DNA of 64,000 bases, taken from the NCBI GenBank assembly GCA_026014875.1, contig JAOZHO010000034.1:1-64000 (forward strand), given 5' to 3'. Source of the stretch: Candidatus Bathyarchaeota archaeon. Lineage in GTDB: Archaea > Thermoproteota > Bathyarchaeia > TCS64. Positions 51,913 through 62,065 of the stretch are shown piece by piece. Below the pieces are notes generated by a model. The model was not told the DNA's origin. It saw only the letters and a list, made by a program, of their open reading frames with translations, and did not search any database. Within the stretch, counting starts at the first letter, position 1. The number at the start of each line of letters is the position of its first letter. Position numbers and translations under genes: made by a program.

Positions 51913-52650
51913 TTAGAAAAGGTCCCGGAAGATTCTCTTCGCGTTCTTTCCCAGCAGGAGCTCCCTGTAGACGGGGGCCAGCTTCAGGGTGCGGATCTCC
52001 TTCACCCCCAGCCCGGGGTGATTCTGAGGAGACTCGGATCCGAAGCAGATGCGGGTTGGCCCCAGGTCCTTTACGAGGCCCACGCCGCTGGTGATCCCGT
52101 TCCTGCCCCCGGTGTCTATGATGATGTTCCTGTGGGTTCTCATCAGCTCTTTTATCCGGGGCCAGAAGGTGTTGACCACGAGCCTCACCTCTGGAAACTT
52201 GTAGGCCAGCTGGTTGAGGCCATTGTAGTAGGTCTCCCGTCCCATGCTCTCGCTCTCCCCTGTCTCGCTGTTTGGGTTGTTGAAGAGGACCGGGAGGTTG
52301 TTATCCATGCAGGGCACCATGAACTCTATCTTCGGGCTCCTCCCGAATACCCGGTGGAACTCGGGGTCCAGCATCACCCCCTTCAGGCCGAGGCTGACGA
52401 TCCTCTCCACCTCCTCCAGGGCTCCATCCGCATTGGGGTCGACGCAGCCGAACCCTATGAGCCTGTCAGGGTGCTCCTTGACGACCGCGGCGATTCTATC
52501 GTTGACCTCCTGGATCTTCATGGACGGGAAAGGCATGACGAAAGTGACGTCGATACCATACTTTTCCATGTCCCTCAGGATCTCTTCGGGTGTCTGCTTG
52601 AAGTCCATGAGGGGGTGGTGGCCAATGTGGGCGTGGATGTCCACGATCAT
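51913..52650 (-). CDS. Amidohydrolase-fold protein, B-type partner (degenerate active site)
   Basis: MIVDIHAHIGHHPL; strands expected to carry ligands read LFNNPN, VVNTFWP and FGSESPQNHP; coupled to 52650..53402. Confidence 0.85.
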   Translation of the reverse strand: MIVDIHAHIGHHPLMDFKQTPEEILRDMEKYGIDVTFVMPFPSMKIQEVNDRIAAVVKEHPDRLIGFGCVDPNADGALEEVERIVSLGLKGVMLDPEFHRVFGRSPKIEFMVPCMDNNLPVLFNNPNSETGESESMGRETYYNGLNQLAYKFPEVRLVVNTFWPRIKELMRTHRNIIIDTGGRNGITSGVGLVKDLGPTRICFGSESPQNHPGLGVKEIRTLKLAPVYRELLLGKNAKRIFRDLF

Positions 52651-53402
52651 TAGGCATCAACCCCCAGGAGCTTGGCCGCGGAATTCCCGAGGACAAGCTT
52701 TTCCTGTTCCTCCGGAAGGTCGGCGAAGCGGACTGCGTCCAGCATGAGCCCCATGTAGTCCCCCGCCTTCTCGAAACGGCTCCCGTATCCCCCGTTGGCG
52801 GAGTCGGAGCCGAACATCACCTTCTCGGCGCCTATGCGCTCCACCGCCTGTTTGATGGCGTAGGGGTTGGAGTAGCAGGTCTCCAGGTAGATGTTGGGGT
52901 TCTTTTCAGCCATCTTGGTGCTGAGGAGCTCGGAGTCGAAGCATGTGCCTCCGCCCATGTGGAGTATGACTGTTTTCACCTTGGGGAAGCTGTTGGCTAT
53001 GTCCCCGATGATGTAGGGATGGTTCCTGATGCTGTGATCAGAGTGAACGGCCACCACGGCACCATGCCTCTCAGCGATCTCCATCATGGGATACATGAAC
53101 CGTGCGACAGCGTGAGTGTGCCCCACCTTCACTCCTTTCCACTTGTATTCACCCAGGTACTTATCCACCAGCTCGAGCCCCACCTCCTCGTAGCTGGGGG
53201 CGAAATTCACGAAAGGAATGAATCTGTCTGGATGCTCCTCCGCCGACTTGGCTACGAAGGCGTTATCCTCAGCGTCCCCGAAGACACCGAAGACCACGGC
53301 TATGTCCACCCCCGCGGCGTCCATGTCGTCGATGAGAAGAGTAGCGGGCCCCGTGGGCTTCCAGCGCTGGGACAAATGGCAGTGAGCGTCTATAACAACC
53401 AA
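52650..53402 (-). CDS. Amidohydrolase, A-type (intact-looking active site)
   Basis: VIDAHCHL (HxH), AVHSDHS, VILHMGGGTCFDSE, VMFGSDSANGG. Confidence 0.88.
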   Translation of the reverse strand: MVVIDAHCHLSQRWKPTGPATLLIDDMDAAGVDIAVVFGVFGDAEDNAFVAKSAEEHPDRFIPFVNFAPSYEEVGLELVDKYLGEYKWKGVKVGHTHAVARFMYPMMEIAERHGAVVAVHSDHSIRNHPYIIGDIANSFPKVKTVILHMGGGTCFDSELLSTKMAEKNPNIYLETCYSNPYAIKQAVERIGAEKVMFGSDSANGGYGSRFEKAGDYMGLMLDAVRFADLPEEQEKLVLGNSAAKLLGVDA

Positions 53403-53584: not shown

Positions 53585-54412
53585 ATGAAAGTCTACATCT
53601 CATTCGACATGGAAGGAGTATCTGGAATAGCAGGCGGGGGAATGACGGGGCCAAACCCCCGCACTCCCTCCGCCTACCCCAGAGGCCAGAGATTCTCCAC
53701 GGACGACGTGAAGGCGGCCATCGATGGGGTTCTCGAGGTCGATCCGGACGCTGAGATCTGGTTCAACGACGCCCACGGAAAATCGATGAACGTCTACTTC
53801 GAGGAGTTCCCGGAGAACGTTAAGATAGTCATCAACTCGGCGGAGCTCTTCGACGAGGCCCTCGGGATAGATGAAACCTTCGACGCCCTCATCTGCATCG
53901 GCTCCCACGGCCATCTCCTACAGGCCGACGGGGTGCTCAGCCATATCTGGGATGTCAGGGCGTTGGAGTATAACGGGAAGAGCCTAACGGAGACGTGCCT
54001 CAACGCATCCTTGGCGGGTTACTACAAGGTTCCCCTCGTGATGATCTCGGGGGACGAGGACAGCATGGAGTACATATCGGAGAACATAGGGACCGGGTTC
54101 GCGACTGCCTCCGTCAAGAAGGGGATAGGCAGGTACGCTGCGGTGTCCCTGCACCCGAAGAAGGCTCAGAAGCTCATCAAGGCGGCGGTCATCGACGGCC
54201 TGAAGAGGCTTCACGAGATTCCGCCCTTCGAGTTCGAGACCCCCATCACCGTGGATATCGCCTACAAGGACCATGGCGGGGCCTTCAACAACATGTTCTT
54301 CATGCCCCAGGACGAGAGGGTCTCAGGCGACAAGGTCAGGTTCACCGCGGCAAACGCCAAAGAGGCATATTACGGCTTCCTGGCCCGGGATAAGTTGAGC
54401 AAGAACAAGTAG
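53585..54412 (+). CDS. dppA: M55 family D-aminopeptidase (DppA-like)
   Basis: MKVYISFDMEGVSGIAGG; RFSTDDVKAAIDGVLEVDPDAEIWFNDAHGKSMN; IGSHGH. Confidence 0.92.
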   Translation: MKVYISFDMEGVSGIAGGGMTGPNPRTPSAYPRGQRFSTDDVKAAIDGVLEVDPDAEIWFNDAHGKSMNVYFEEFPENVKIVINSAELFDEALGIDETFDALICIGSHGHLLQADGVLSHIWDVRALEYNGKSLTETCLNASLAGYYKVPLVMISGDEDSMEYISENIGTGFATASVKKGIGRYAAVSLHPKKAQKLIKAAVIDGLKRLHEIPPFEFETPITVDIAYKDHGGAFNNMFFMPQDERVSGDKVRFTAANAKEAYYGFLARDKLSKNK

Positions 54413-54502: not shown

Positions 54503-56083
54503 TTGGATTTTGATATTCTCATTGTTAATGGTCGCGTTGTTGATGGAGCGGGGAATCCCTGGTTTAAAGCGGACGTGGGTATCACAGGGGAAAGCATCAG
54601 TGCCATAGGTAAGCTGCATGACTCCGGTGCCGGGAGGACCATCGACGCTGAGGGGCTCGTCGTGGCCCCCGGGTTCATCGATATCCACGGCCACTCAAGC
54701 TACTCGGTGCTCATCGACCCGAGGGTGGAGAGCAAGGTCAGACAAGGCGTCACCACGGAGGTCTCGGGGAACTGTGGCACGTCCCCGGCCCCGATGAGTG
54801 GGGCCGTGAGGGAGTACCGGGAGACGTTCATGCGGGCCCAGCTTCCCGAGGGTTTCGACCTTGACTGGGAAACCATGGGAGAGTATCTCGACAAGATAGA
54901 CGAACGGGGCGCCGCATTCAACGTTGTTCCCCTCGTCGGCCAGGGGAGCGTCCGCCAGAACGTGATGGGATTCGAGGACCGGCAGACCACGAAGGGGGAG
55001 CTGGAGGAGATGCGAGACCTGATAGCCGGAGCGTTGAATGATGGAGCCTGGGGCATGTCCTCGGGCCTGGTCACCACCCCCAGCTGCTACGCGGATACCG
55101 ATGAGCTCACCGAGCTGGCCAAGGTGGTCGCGGAGCACCGCGGAGTCTACTATATCCACCTACGGGGGGAGAGCGAGACCCTATTCGAGGCGCTTGATGA
55201 GGCCTTCGAGATCGGGAGAAGGTCTGGGGTATCCCTGGAGATAGTCCACTTCAAGGCATCTGGGAGGGATAACTGGGGAAACACCGAGGAGGGACTGAGA
55301 AGAATCGAGGAAGCCCGAGCCCAGGGGCTGGACATCACCCTCGACCAGTATCCCTACATCGCCTCGAGCATCGGCCTCTCGGCCCTCATACCTCCATGGG
55401 CGCATGAGGGGGGAAACGACAGGCTCCTAGAGAGGCTGAGGGACCCCAAAGTCCGCAGGAGGATCAAGGAAGGCCCGACCAGGCTCACCAACGAGCTCGA
55501 CGACGTGTTGATCTCCTTCGCCAAGAACAACCCAGATTATGAGGGGAAAAGGGTCACCGAGATCGCAAGAATGAAGGATAAGGATCCGATGGATACCGTG
55601 TTCGATCTGCTGCTGGCGGAGAACGCCCAGGCGGGGATGGTCGTTTTCGGGATGTCCGAGGAGGACGTCGAGCGGGTGATGCGCAGCCCCTACATGATGG
55701 TCTGCTCCGACGGCCTGGGTGTGTCGCCCAGTGGTACGCACAATAGGGGGAAGCCCCATCCCCGATACTACGGGGCGTTTCCCCGGGTTCTCAGCCGCTA
55801 CGTCAGGGAGAAGGGTGTCCTGAGCCTCCAGGAGGCCGTGAGGAAGATGACCTCTCTGCCGGCCCAGAGAATTGGCCTCAGGGACAGGGGTCTCCTGAGG
55901 GAGGGTTTCAAGGCCGATGTTGTCCTGTTCGACCCTGAGACTGTGAACGACGAAGCTACTTTCATCGATCCGCACCGGTTTCCTAAGGGAATACCCTATG
56001 TGATGGTGAATGGGGGCCTCGTCGTTGATGGTGGCGATCAGACGGGAGCGCTTCCCGGGCAGGTCCTACGTAAGCCCTGCTAA
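54503..56083 (+). CDS. N-acyl-D-amino-acid deacylase family amidohydrolase
   Basis: DFDILIVNGRVVDGAGNPWFKADVGI; APGFIDIHGHSSYSVLIDPRVESKVRQGVTTEVSGNCGTS. Confidence 0.93.
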   Translation: MDFDILIVNGRVVDGAGNPWFKADVGITGESISAIGKLHDSGAGRTIDAEGLVVAPGFIDIHGHSSYSVLIDPRVESKVRQGVTTEVSGNCGTSPAPMSGAVREYRETFMRAQLPEGFDLDWETMGEYLDKIDERGAAFNVVPLVGQGSVRQNVMGFEDRQTTKGELEEMRDLIAGALNDGAWGMSSGLVTTPSCYADTDELTELAKVVAEHRGVYYIHLRGESETLFEALDEAFEIGRRSGVSLEIVHFKASGRDNWGNTEEGLRRIEEARAQGLDITLDQYPYIASSIGLSALIPPWAHEGGNDRLLERLRDPKVRRRIKEGPTRLTNELDDVLISFAKNNPDYEGKRVTEIARMKDKDPMDTVFDLLLAENAQAGMVVFGMSEEDVERVMRSPYMMVCSDGLGVSPSGTHNRGKPHPRYYGAFPRVLSRYVREKGVLSLQEAVRKMTSLPAQRIGLRDRGLLREGFKADVVLFDPETVNDEATFIDPHRFPKGIPYVMVNGGLVVDGGDQTGALPGQVLRKPC

Positions 56084-56262: not shown

Positions 56263-58686
56263 TTAAGGAGTCTTTTCCAGTGTGTAGATCCAGCCAGGAT
56301 CGGTGATCCAGGCTATGCTGTACTGGAATCCGGAGACGTAGTCATGTGCAGCGAAGAATGCTGGAGTGTATACTGTTAGGATTCCCGGAACATCCTCTTC
56401 GAGGAGCACCTGGGCATCAATGTACAGTTGTTCCTGCAATTCTAGGTCTGCGGTTGCCGTTGCTTCTTCAAGCAGGGCGTCAGTTACGTCGTTTACGTAA
56501 CCGAAGCTGCCTGCGTATCCGTGTGCAGCTCCGAAGACGTTCTGGATGTAGTAGGCGTCTGGTCCGTTCTCTGCCACCATGGTCCCTATCGGCGTACCTC
56601 CGCCGACCAGGTCACCCCAAGTCGTTACGACGGGGATTACCACGAATTTGGGGTTGATGGATGCCAGAGAGTCCGCTATCAGAGTGCCGAGGACACCACC
56701 GGTATCCGCAGCCCATGCCTGATATGCGTACGTAATCTGGAAGCCTTCATCCCAGTACTTCCCGTCGTATGCCAGCTTGAACTCCTCCTCTGCTTTCACA
56801 GGGTCGTACGTGAAGGGGAAGCCCTCATAGTATCCCGGCCAACCAGGGTTTAGGACACCCTTGGCGGGCTCGGCCCATCCCAGATAGACCTCATTTACGT
56901 AGGTCTCGTAGGGGATGGCGTATGAGAACGCTCTCCTCATGTGTACGTCTGCACTGAAGAAGTCCGATGGCACCTCGTTGTCAGGTGGCGCAGCGTTTAT
57001 GTCGAAGTCGAAGCCGAAGTAGCAGACCTCAACGAATCCCTCCTGCTTGATGGGGGTCACATAAGTCTGCGAAGAAGCCGGTAGTGCGATTATCTGCTCT
57101 GCCTGTACAGGTGAGGCTGGAGACATCGCGTCGATGTCGCCCTGCCTGAACATCAGGTACTTGGTTGACCACTCTAAGATGTTGAGGCTGAGTATGGTCT
57201 CCTCTGGAGCCGCACCCTGCCAGTAGTCATCGAATCTCACAAGCTGGATCCTCTCGTTCTTGGACCACTCATCTACCATGAATGGGCCTGAACCGATGAC
57301 CCCCTTGCCAGCGATGATCGCGTCAACGTCCTCGAAGGCTGGGTCGATAGTGTCGGACCAGTCTCGAGTGTCTCCCAAGAACCATGAACCAGCTGCCTCG
57401 GCTGCCGCTTGCTGTATGATGCCTCTGCCTGGATATGCCACCGTGAACAAGAATGGCCCATAAGTTTGGGTGAGCACGAACACGACGGTATCGTCACCGT
57501 CTGCGTATATGTGCTCCTCAAGCATCTCGACGGTGATAGGATCACCGAATTCGATGCCTAGGAGGGGTTTCACTAAAAGTGCTCCCCAGCTCCTTCCCGT
57601 ACCCATGCTCCGGCGCCATGTATAGACGACATCGTCTGCAGTTACCTCCGACCCGTCCCAGAACTTGACGCCATCCCTCAAGGTGAAGGTGTATGTCAAG
57701 CCATCTGAGGAGACCTCAAGTGCCTCCGCGATACCGCCCTCAAGTGTGGGCACTGTCGATCCGGGTAGGAACTTCATCAGAGTGTCGAACAGAGCTAGGT
57801 CGACCCATCTTCCGACGTTTCCCTCGGAAATTCTCAGGGGCTCAAGGTTCGAAGGAGCGCCCATCGCCATAACCAAAGTATCGGGATTCTTCACGATACC
57901 CTGGTAGTCTACGGGCTCCTCAGTAACGATGATTGTCCGACCTACAGAGTCAGATTTTCCGTTGAGTGCATCTTTGACCGTCAGGATAACGAAGTAGCTC
58001 CCTGCATCGTCATAGGTGAAACTTGTGGTCTCACCATCGACCATGGTGCCCTCTCCGAAATCCCAACTCCAAGCGTTGACGTTTGGTGTGTATGCCTGAA
58101 TCTCTCCCCTCCGGTCCCGATAGTGATAGGAGGAAGCTCCATCGAGTCCTACCGGCTCACCCACCTCGAGAACCGAGGCATTTGCGCCAATAATGGCTAC
58201 AGGAGGAAGCTCAAGACTGAGCTCAAGGACCTCTTCCCTATCAACTTTGAGGAATATCGGAGCAGTTATGGTGTCAGCCTTACCACCTACGTCGTCCTCG
58301 GCCTCCACGTAAATTACGTAGTAACCGGGGAGATCGTAGCTGTGTCTAGCGGTCTCACCCACTCCTGTCGTTCCATCGCCGAAGTACCAGACGTACTCCT
58401 CGATCTCTCCATCCGGGTCGATCGATCCCTTAGCGCTGAACAGAACAGACTCCCCGACTTCGGCTGAAGTCGAGTAGCCTATCGAAGCAACTACGGGGAC
58501 CTTGTTGTCCGGGGGAGGAGTCGGGCTAGGAGCGGGAGTCGGGCTAGGAGTTGGACTGGGGCTAGGACTAGGTGATGGTGTAGGTGCTGGCCTTGTGAAG
58601 TACCAAAGACCCGCGGCGACCACGATGATCACCACGACTGCGATGATTAGTGTGTTGTTATTTGAACTTGCTTTTCTTGAACGCAT
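56263..58686 (-). CDS. ABC transporter substrate-binding protein (family 5, peptide type) with N-terminal TM, Pro/Ser/Thr linker and two PKD domains
   Basis: TM anchor, PTPSPSPSPSPTPSPTP linker, PKD-like VWYFGDGTTGVGETARHSYDLPGYYVIYVEAEDD and WSWDFGEGTMVDGETTSFTYDDAGSYFVILTVKD, then SBP_bac_5-like TYTFTLRDGVKFWDGSEVTADDVVYTWRRSM. Confidence 0.92.
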   Translation of the reverse strand: MRSRKASSNNNTLIIAVVVIIVVAAGLWYFTRPAPTPSPSPSPSPTPSPTPAPSPTPPPDNKVPVVASIGYSTSAEVGESVLFSAKGSIDPDGEIEEYVWYFGDGTTGVGETARHSYDLPGYYVIYVEAEDDVGGKADTITAPIFLKVDREEVLELSLELPPVAIIGANASVLEVGEPVGLDGASSYHYRDRRGEIQAYTPNVNAWSWDFGEGTMVDGETTSFTYDDAGSYFVILTVKDALNGKSDSVGRTIIVTEEPVDYQGIVKNPDTLVMAMGAPSNLEPLRISEGNVGRWVDLALFDTLMKFLPGSTVPTLEGGIAEALEVSSDGLTYTFTLRDGVKFWDGSEVTADDVVYTWRRSMGTGRSWGALLVKPLLGIEFGDPITVEMLEEHIYADGDDTVVFVLTQTYGPFLFTVAYPGRGIIQQAAAEAAGSWFLGDTRDWSDTIDPAFEDVDAIIAGKGVIGSGPFMVDEWSKNERIQLVRFDDYWQGAAPEETILSLNILEWSTKYLMFRQGDIDAMSPASPVQAEQIIALPASSQTYVTPIKQEGFVEVCYFGFDFDINAAPPDNEVPSDFFSADVHMRRAFSYAIPYETYVNEVYLGWAEPAKGVLNPGWPGYYEGFPFTYDPVKAEEEFKLAYDGKYWDEGFQITYAYQAWAADTGGVLGTLIADSLASINPKFVVIPVVTTWGDLVGGGTPIGTMVAENGPDAYYIQNVFGAAHGYAGSFGYVNDVTDALLEEATATADLELQEQLYIDAQVLLEEDVPGILTVYTPAFFAAHDYVSGFQYSIAWITDPGWIYTLEKTP

Positions 58687-58941: not shown

Positions 58942-60087
58942 TTATTTGAATCTGCTCGGATTGAAACTGTCGAGCAGGGGATCCCCTTCATCCTTCATGA
59001 TGTAGTTGGTGAGTATCCTGCCTGTGTCGGGGGCCAGGATGACGCCGTTGCCACTCATGCCCGTAGCCACCAGGAAACCCTCCACATCAGACTCACCGAC
59101 TATCGGCAGCTTGTCAGTGGTCACAGACCTGTAGCCTAGCCAGTCGTTCACGAGCTGGGCGTCGAGGAGCTTGGGAACGCTCTCCGCCAGCCTCTCGGTG
59201 AGGAAGTCGAAGAAGTACTCTTCGGTGCCGCCGCTGAGGGACAGCTCGTCGGGGTCCCATACCCCCGTCTCGATTGCCTTGCCATAGTCCATGGCCATGT
59301 GGCTCTTGCAGACAAAGACCGCACGACCCTCTGACCGGGCATACCAGTGGGGATATTTGAGGATAGGGAACTCGTAGTCGAGAGGCTCATCAGTCTTCAG
59401 GATGAACACCTCGGCCTTAGTGTGAACCAGCGGGAGATCGAGACCCACCAGAGCCCCAACCTTGTTGGACCAGGGCCCAGCCGCGCAGACCACAAGGTCG
59501 AAGTCATAGTCGCCCTTCGAGGACTTTATTCCGCTTACCGCGCCGTCTTTGGTCAGGATCTCGTTCACATTTGCGTGAGTGATGAACTTGGCGCCCTGCT
59601 CCCTAGCCCACCTCGCGTAGATGAGGGAGGCAGCCGTAGGGTTGTTGTAGCCGTCGTCCGGGGTCCAGGCTCCGCCCAGCAGCCCCTCAGGGGTCAGGTC
59701 TGGGAGGTATTTCACCAGCCCTTCCGGATCCTCGATGAACTCGGCGTTGAACCCCGCCTTCTGACTCGCCTCGACGTGCATCTTCGCCCTCTTCATCTCG
59801 TCCTCGGTGGGGCTGACGACGAGGGTTCCAGACTGCACGAACTCGCTCTCATTGTGGGTGTCCTCGTTCATCTTCTTGTAAGTGTTCAGGCAGGTGACTC
59901 TCTGCTCGAAGAACTCGTAAGGTAGCGAGTCATCGATGAGGCAAAGGGTACCAGCAGACTTGGCCGTTGTGCCCGAACCAATCTGATTCTTCTCGAAGAC
60001 AACAACGTCCGCGTCGTCGTGCTTGGTTAGATGGTAGGCGAGGGCGGTCCCGATGATCCCTGCGCCGATTATTCCAATCTTTTTCAA
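58942..60087 (-). CDS. FAD-dependent oxidoreductase, DAO family (D-amino-acid dehydrogenase/sarcosine oxidase-like)
   Basis: KKIGIIGAGIIGTALAYHLTKHDDADVVVFEKNQIGSGTTAKSAGTL; VVCAAGPWSNKV; inferred TTG start at 60087. Confidence 0.9.
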   Translation of the reverse strand: MKKIGIIGAGIIGTALAYHLTKHDDADVVVFEKNQIGSGTTAKSAGTLCLIDDSLPYEFFEQRVTCLNTYKKMNEDTHNESEFVQSGTLVVSPTEDEMKRAKMHVEASQKAGFNAEFIEDPEGLVKYLPDLTPEGLLGGAWTPDDGYNNPTAASLIYARWAREQGAKFITHANVNEILTKDGAVSGIKSSKGDYDFDLVVCAAGPWSNKVGALVGLDLPLVHTKAEVFILKTDEPLDYEFPILKYPHWYARSEGRAVFVCKSHMAMDYGKAIETGVWDPDELSLSGGTEEYFFDFLTERLAESVPKLLDAQLVNDWLGYRSVTTDKLPIVGESDVEGFLVATGMSGNGVILAPDTGRILTNYIMKDEGDPLLDSFNPSRFK

Positions 60088-60197
60088 AACAATTTCACCT
60101 TTGAATACAGCATGGATAACTAATCTCATTGATAAAAGGTTTCTCAATAAAGACGAAGATCCGATTACTTGTGAGAAAAACTCCATCTTTTCTCAGG

Positions 60198-60596: not shown

Positions 60597-61325
60597 TTGG
60601 TAATCATTGATGCGCACTGCCATCTATCCCCGAAAGGGGGTCCAGCATCCAAGTTGATTGAGAGCATGGACCCTGCGGGGATCGACATGGCGTGTGTCTT
60701 CGGAAACGATAACGAGTATGTCGCAGAGGCAGCGAAAAAATTCCCCGACCGTTACATCCCCTTCGTCTACTTCGACCCCCGATACGAGGAGGTCGCAGTC
60801 GAGACCGTGGAAAAATACGCCACAGAGCTTGGCTGGAAAGGCGTGAAGGTGGGTCATCAGCACGCCGTAGCCCGGTTCATGTACCCCCTGATGGAGAAGG
60901 CCGAGGAGCATGGACTCTTGGTGGTCATACACTCTGATCACAGCATCAGAAACCATCCCTACATCATCGGGGACATAGCCAACAGCTTCCCCAAGGTGAA
61001 AACAGTCATCCTCCACATGGGAGGAGGCACCTGCTTCGACTCCGAACTCCTCAGCACCAAGATGGCCGAAAAGAACCCCAACATCTACCTGGAGACCTGC
61101 TACTCCAACCCCTACGCCATCAAGCAGGCGGTGGAGACAATCGGAGCCGACAGAGTGATGTTCGGCTCGGACGACTCCAACGGGGGCTATGGTAGCCGGT
61201 TCGAAAAGCCCGGCCAGTATCAGGACCTCATGCTCGACGCCGTCAGGGTCATAGGGCTCCCCAAAGATCAGGAGGAGGCGATCCTGGGGGGAACCATAGC
61301 TAATCTTATGGGGATTGATGCTTGA
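60597..61325 (+). CDS. Amidohydrolase, A-type (second copy)
   Basis: VIIDAHCHLSP, VIHSDHS, VILHMGGGTCFDSE, VMFGSDDSNGG; identical 69-aa core to 52650..53402. Confidence 0.88.
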   Translation: MVIIDAHCHLSPKGGPASKLIESMDPAGIDMACVFGNDNEYVAEAAKKFPDRYIPFVYFDPRYEEVAVETVEKYATELGWKGVKVGHQHAVARFMYPLMEKAEEHGLLVVIHSDHSIRNHPYIIGDIANSFPKVKTVILHMGGGTCFDSELLSTKMAEKNPNIYLETCYSNPYAIKQAVETIGADRVMFGSDDSNGGYGSRFEKPGQYQDLMLDAVRVIGLPKDQEEAILGGTIANLMGIDA

Positions 61326-62065
61326 TGATTATCGACATCCACGCTCATCTGGGACACCATCCGCTCCAGGACTTCAAGCAGGAGCCAGAGGACATCCTCG
61401 CGGTCATGGAGAAATACGAGATATCTAGGAGCTTCATTCTCCCCTTCCCCTCCATGAAGATCAAGACCGTCAACGATTCCGTGGCCGCGTTCGTCAAAAA
61501 GCACCCAGGCAAACTCACGGGCTTCGCCGTCATCGATCCGGCAGCCGATGACGCTTTAGAGGAGGTCGAGAGAATCGCAGGTCTGGGATTAAAGGGAGTG
61601 ATGCTAGACCCCGAGTTCCACGGCGTTTTCCGACGACAGGCGAAGGTGGAGGCGCTCATGGTGCCGTGTATGGACAACGGCCTCCCCGTCCTATTCAACA
61701 CCCTGAACATCGAGGTGGGAGAAGGTTCAAGGATGGGCCGAGAGCCCTACTACAACGGGCTCAACAGTCTCGCCTTCAAGTTCCCCGAGGTCAGGTTCGT
61801 CGTGAGCCCCTTCTGGCCCAGGATTAGGGACCTGATGAGGCAGTACCAGAACATATTCATCGACAGCGGAGGCCGGAACGGCATATCGGGGGCGGTGAGG
61901 CTCGCAGTTGAGGTCGGACCCACCCGAGTCTGTTTCGGCTCGGAGTCGCCCCAGAACCACCCAGCCCTGGGAGTCAAGGCCATAAGGACCATGAAGCTCT
62001 CCCCTGTTTACAGGGAACTCCTGCTGGGGAAGAACGCGAAGAGGATCTTCGGAGACCTCTTCTAG
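61322..62065 (+). CDS. Amidohydrolase-fold protein, B-type partner (second copy, degenerate active site)
   Basis: MIIDIHAHLGHHPL; LFNTLN, VVSPFWP, FGSESPQNHP; 4-nt overlap with upstream A-type gene. Confidence 0.85.
   Translation: MMIIDIHAHLGHHPLQDFKQEPEDILAVMEKYEISRSFILPFPSMKIKTVNDSVAAFVKKHPGKLTGFAVIDPAADDALEEVERIAGLGLKGVMLDPEFHGVFRRQAKVEALMVPCMDNGLPVLFNTLNIEVGEGSRMGREPYYNGLNSLAFKFPEVRFVVSPFWPRIRDLMRQYQNIFIDSGGRNGISGAVRLAVEVGPTRVCFGSESPQNHPALGVKAIRTMKLSPVYRELLLGKNAKRIFGDLF

Follow-up and report, generated by a model that had tools for sequence, protein, structure and literature searches.

Intact amidohydrolases paired with maintained, metal-site-less paralogues point to an overlooked class of two-part enzymes

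The first 64,000 nucleotides of contig JAOZHO010000034.1 of a Candidatus Bathyarchaeota archaeon (GCA_026014875.1; the whole stretch is called the window here) carry two gene pairs in which an intact ACMSD-type amidohydrolase, A, overlaps by one nucleotide a degenerate paralogue, B. B is a maintained protein: its fold is kept and it is under purifying selection, while its catalytic residues are lost. Pairs of this kind occur in many archaea and bacteria, side by side or fused, and they point to two-part enzymes, one half working and the other helping, as a class that has been overlooked.

RESULTS

Two intact-plus-degenerate pairs in the window

The pairs and the ligand positions of the first of them, as placed by alignment, are as follows.

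52650..53402, minus strand: A1, intact Amidohydro_2 (ACMSD-type), 250 aa, TTG start; ligands H7 and H9 (β1), H120 (β5), H148 (β6) and D200 (β8), that is HHHHD
51913..52650, minus strand: B1, degenerate partner of A1, 245 aa; H6 and H8 retained
52279..52281, minus strand: B1 codon N124, at the β5-His position (LFNNPN)
52168..52170, minus strand: B1 codon T161, at the β6-His position (VVNTFWP)
52033..52035, minus strand: B1 codon E206, at the β8-Asp position (FGSESP)
60597..61325, plus strand: A2, intact Amidohydro_2 by alignment and Pfam, HHHHD
61325..62065, plus strand: B2, degenerate partner of A2, HH-N-P-E; ATG start, alternative TTG at 61322

An earlier note, made from the sequence alone, had described both pairs. 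Its coordinates are right, to which we add that pair 1 lies on the minus strand, and its reading of the residues agrees with the superfamily alignment. The A-type pattern is intact (HHHHD in A1 and A2), B1 keeps its HAH motif and has both later histidines and the aspartate replaced (HHNTE), and the same loss recurs in the second pair (HHNPE). The motifs flanking the ligand positions align unambiguously between A and B. All four proteins pass the curated gathering cut-off of PF04909 (Amidohydro_2; 26.4 bits), with 87.2 bits for A1, 49.2 for B1, 95.1 for A2 and 63.6 for B2. The stop codon of A and the ATG of B share one nucleotide in both pairs, the junction reading TAATG in pair 1, where the overlap had been noticed before, and TGATG in pair 2.

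B is constrained as strongly as A

Between two species of the genus, dN for A and B is 0.10 and 0.096 in pair 1, 0.090 and 0.103 in pair 2, and 0.097 and 0.092 in pair 4. Since B diverges at the same rate as A, it is constrained as much as A. The dN/dS check that the earlier note had suggested gave omega values of 0.056 for B1 and 0.060 for B2 (NG86, same-genus orthologues), with synonymous sites saturated or nearly so and an NG86 dS obtained for 2 of the 6 orthologue pairs only. The reading frames of the window B genes are free of damage. AlphaFold2 folds A1 and B1 singly into confident TIM barrels (pLDDT 89 for both; pTM 0.90 for A1 and 0.89 for B1), and the two share their PDB neighbours: 3cjp comes first, followed by carboxyvanillate and dihydroxybenzoate decarboxylases and ACMSD. 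The view that B is maintained and not decaying is thus borne out by intact frames, by dN of 0.09–0.10 as in A, by an omega of about 0.06 and by the predicted fold.

Further pairs in the genome and the genus

The same assembly holds two more pairs of the window type, on contigs C13 and C45 (the latter just past the end of the window), and a fifth of a different lineage on contig C8. Because there are more pairs in the same genome, chance occurrence of the window pattern is ruled out. A1–A5 are all HHHHD, so that a competent mononuclear ACMSD-like ligand set is present in each, and B1–B5 fail the same five-residue test, with the strings HHNTE, HHNPE, HHNPE, HQCLS and HFHQD. B4 (C45) additionally lacks one histidine of HxH, reading H-Q-C-L-S, and B5 (C8) lacks one histidine of HxH together with the β6-His. 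Within the window lineage the β6-His and the β8-Asp are absent from every B and A is always HHHHD. No complete alternative metal site is apparent in any of these B sequences, whose ligand set varies even within B1–B4.

Pairs 1, 2 and 4 are syntenic in a second species of the genus, where they lie in one stretch with homologues of the intervening genes. The B1–B4 type was found in this genus only, and because it is so confined a scan of GTDB genomes with it gave no matches; a broader B type did.

The A copies show a mosaic of similarity. Over a central stretch of about 180–240 nt, A1, A2 and A3 (L003 2259-3008) are 87–98% identical, against about 58–83% over most of the rest, and in that same stretch the A1 orthologue of the other species reaches only 78–88%. 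On sequence grounds this suggests gene conversion among the A copies; no such signal was seen in B. One C8-type B gene of the same family, from a draft genome (L192 1489-2247), has a single in-frame TAA, which may be an error or decay.

Spread across archaea and bacteria

Degenerate partners of other sequence types stand beside an intact A throughout Thermoproteota, and also in Planctomycetota, Acidobacteriota, Armatimonadota, Bacillota, Bacteroidota, haloarchaea and more. Our first set, collected by class and phylum searches, held 39 degenerate domains, defined as keeping at most three of the five ligands. For 37 of them an intact domain lies next door or in the same chain, and it has all five ligands in 36 cases and four in one. 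For the remaining two an intact member lies within the same gene cluster: on a Klebsiella plasmid (L088) PTS genes stand between A and B, and in Nonomuraea (L092) A is cut at the locus edge. The same set contains 46 intact members without a neighbouring family member. Two further searches of the class with other B types added only B genes accompanied by an intact A.

The GTDB scan with one B type returned 80 loci in at least 12 phyla, covering Bathyarchaeota, Bacillota, Armatimonadota, Zipacnadia, Planctomycetota, Acidobacteriota, Verrucomicrobiota, Bacteroidota, Chloroflexota, Gemmatimonadota, Latescibacterota, Poribacteria, WS1 and Halobacteria. Of the B genes, 74 lie immediately 3' of an intact A. 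At L103 the A before B is truncated by the end of the contig, at L109 B lies about 700 bp downstream of its A, three B genes sit at the edge of a contig, and two lack an adjacent A. An intact A is therefore nearby for 76 of the 78 assessable B genes, and while one of the two scan patterns included the degenerate motif, so that degeneracy of B was selected for, neither whether an A lay next to it nor whether that A was intact entered the selection. Both exceptions look like split pairs, since each genome encodes, on a different contig, an intact A that has no B next to it (L212, L213), along with other adjacent pairs; adjacency is thus not strictly required. Where this could be assessed, we found no B in a genome that lacks an intact A relative. 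Co-location of A and B therefore extends far beyond the genome in which it was noticed.

Wherever examined, A is almost invariantly HHHHD, and the ligands of B vary (HHNTE, HQCLS, HFHQD, HHHSN, NYPNG and others). B of the scan type has a conserved polar set of its own, for example N11, R20, R103, H109, Y111, D140 and R142 in the numbering of the L125 B domain. Two loci are unusual in layout. The Klebsiella pneumoniae plasmid operon has its intact and degenerate amidohydrolases (L088 2807-3532 and 6001-6726) around a mannose-type PTS and also encodes an ADP-ribosylglycohydrolase and a GntR regulator, and a WS1 bacterium has a triple A-A-B arrangement (L161 2369-4756).

Gene order, overlaps and fusions

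A is the leading gene in 98 of 106 unfused pairs. Stop and start overlap at 71 of the 92 measurable unfused junctions, by 4 nt in 45 of these. Fusions occur in either order. Haloarchaeal A-B fusions of about 560–584 aa (L089-L091, L167, L217, L218) have an intact N-terminal half followed by a C-terminal half that is fully degenerate. The opposite order, B-A, is found in Halovivax (543 aa, L217), in one Gemmatimonadota and one Latescibacterota genome (524 aa, L210, L211) and in a genome of the class Bathyarchaeia (537 aa, L045), whose intact half has four of the five ligands. The tight coupling remarked on for the window thus holds well outside this genome and reaches as far as natural fusion in several lineages. 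Such consistent genetic pairing and fusion of intact and degenerate types is what a heteromeric enzyme is expected to show.

Evolution of the pairs

In a tree of 103 rows from which the ligand columns had been removed, B falls in at least four places, so that at least four state changes are preferred. The large scan type occupies one of these. The window type groups with the L010/L012/L039 type in another, the C8 type is next to the clade of its own A, and the first gene of L064 neighbours the intact first gene of L040. Forcing all B together costs 43 log units and is not rejected at the 5% level (p-AU 0.072). Several independent origins of B are likely, judged from the sequences, but not proven. 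Identities between A genes and between the corresponding B genes are correlated (r = 0.95 over 110 pairs, reached by 0 of 2000 permutations), although physical linkage and common descent inflate this Mantel-type correlation, which reflects in part plain co-inheritance.

Tandem pairs with both members intact, which could represent stages before degeneration, are seen at L040 1863-3370 and L053 1520-3112. As the intact-plus-intact L040 lies near the degenerate L064 in the tree, being paired is not in itself enough to bring about loss of the site. The pairs most likely arose more than once from tandem duplicates, L040 representing the both-intact stage. If A and B do form a heteromer, the pairs would make up a graded series: both intact (L040), the β6-His and a second ligand lost, no ligand left, and fused in either order.

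Gene neighbourhood

Genes between the window pairs, assigned by Pfam and neighbourhood, include the following.

53585..54412, plus strand: Peptidase_M55 (D-aminopeptidase), divergent from A1
54503..56083, plus strand: Amidohydro_3, D-aminoacylase-like, in the syntenic cluster between the pairs
56263..58686, minus strand: peptide-type ABC solute-binding protein (SBP_bac_5 and PKD domains), between the pairs
58942..60186, minus strand: FAD-dependent oxidoreductase (DAO family), between the pairs

These neighbours would place the window pairs in peptide, amide or D-amino-acid catabolism. Elsewhere, an M55 D-aminopeptidase adjoins A/B pairs in three unrelated lineages (the window, L045 413-1240 and L115 2336-3160), and genes for peptide-ABC ATPases follow C8-type pairs. 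Neutral/alkaline ceramidase-like (amidase) genes lie within a few kb of scan-type pairs at 13 loci (L089, L090, L091, L094, L107, L109, L146, L156, L160, L165, L166, L167, L171), and DegT aminotransferase genes are found near pairs at nine. Taken over all pairs, the neighbours hint at catabolism of peptides, amides or amino sugars.

DISCUSSION

The reading that we favour, and hold to be probable, is that A and B are two subunits of one enzyme, A being catalytic and B a maintained second protomer. A would be a metal-dependent ACMSD-type amidohydrolase with a complete predicted active site. B, a paralogue with the same TIM barrel that has lost the metal site, would replace the second protomer of an ancestral homodimer, and may complete, hold or tune the active site of A across the interface, or set its substrate specificity. 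The model for such a course is ACMSD, in which the dimer is the active unit, an essential arginine comes from the neighbouring subunit and reactivity is half-of-sites (PMC10143591). In a homodimer whose sites borrow from the neighbour and work one at a time, a second gene would let one metal site go. It is because borrowed, half-working sites can lose one metal site harmlessly that we adopt the heteromer. The sequences show that B has lost residues and is maintained, that its pairing with an intact A is obligate, that the two genes are translationally coupled and in places fused, and that this recurs in several lineages; a physical complex, a division of labour across its interface and the catalytic silence of B are what we infer.

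It is rather unlikely that B is instead a separate second enzyme with new chemistry, acting in the same pathway as A from a remodelled site that is metal-free or differently ligated. Operons and fusions would then reflect pathway coupling, and co-location, co-inheritance and fusion suit two pathway enzymes too. Such an enzyme could build a different site from the conserved polar residues of scan-type B (R20, R103, H109, Y111, D140 and R142 in L125); the β4 DPEFH stretch is conserved in window B1–B4, HxH is retained in B1–B3, and two genomes encode B away from A. However, the ligands of B differ between and within lineages while A is almost invariantly HHHHD, and no B was found without an intact A relative in the genome, where this was assessable. 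Because the retained ligands differ in this way, the B lineages have no alternative metal site in common, and the lack of a constant ligand set leads us to reject a full metal site concealed in B.

Still less likely is a role for B in regulating or chaperoning A without catalysis of its own, by allosteric sensing, metal or substrate delivery or stabilisation, and not as a structural half of the active unit. The pairing evidence would fit this equally, and a well-folded barrel with a conserved altered pocket is what one expects of a ligand sensor, but head-to-tail fusions in both orders favour a constant 1:1 stoichiometry. That B is a decaying tandem duplicate, as the in-frame stop of L192 might suggest, or its residue loss an alignment artefact, is scarcely credible, given omega near 0.06, intact frames, cross-phylum conservation, a confident fold and natural fusions on the one hand and unambiguously aligned flanking motifs on the other; decay is rejected by omega, conservation and fusions.

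If A and B are indeed subunits of one enzyme, the pairs would be a natural replicated experiment in turning shared-site homodimers into enzyme-plus-pseudoenzyme pairs. We consider it an evenly balanced question whether they form a widespread, undescribed two-subunit class in bacteria and archaea, in which half-of-sites homodimers became obligate heterodimers of a catalytic and a pseudoenzyme subunit, several times and independently, with recurrent fusion into a single chain. There are practical consequences. Genes without a metal site are annotated as enzymes in many phyla under the name 'amidohydrolase family protein'; assayed alone, A may seem dead, and B will mislead. The natural fusions and the cultured, sequenced Singulisphaera acidiphila DSM 18658 make the proposal directly testable.

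Pseudoenzyme partners are already known, and dead subunits of the amidohydrolase superfamily are known from other branches. A term-based search of open-access full texts, which is weak evidence of absence, found no description of a widespread pair of intact and degenerate Amidohydro_2 proteins. ACMSD and the γ-resorcylate, 2,3-dihydroxybenzoate and 5-carboxyvanillate decarboxylases have their Pfam family and fold in common with A1 and B1, and A retains their HxH, H, H and D. They are, however, annotated as single gene products, ACMSD being a homodimer, whereas here a degenerate paralogue accompanies the intact copy; the window proteins are also shorter, at about 245 aa versus about 330 aa for ACMSD-type decarboxylases. 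The uncharacterised amidohydrolase CAC3332 (3cjp), the best structural match of both A1 and B1, is of similar length and, unlike the A/B pair, is a single intact protein in its PDB entry.

The inactive dihydroorotase-like subunits that scaffold aspartate transcarbamoylase and the CRMP proteins are likewise barrels of the amidohydrolase superfamily that have lost metal ligands and are kept as structural partners. These belong to other branches of the superfamily, and their partner is the unrelated ATCase or the same protein, not an adjacent intact sister. Heteromers of an enzyme with an inactive paralogue are known in MPP α/β, in trypanosome AdoMetDC with its prozyme and in DHS. All three come from unrelated families, none of them amidohydrolases, but they offer the likeliest working model for the A/B pairs, in which an inactive copy completes its active sister or activates it.
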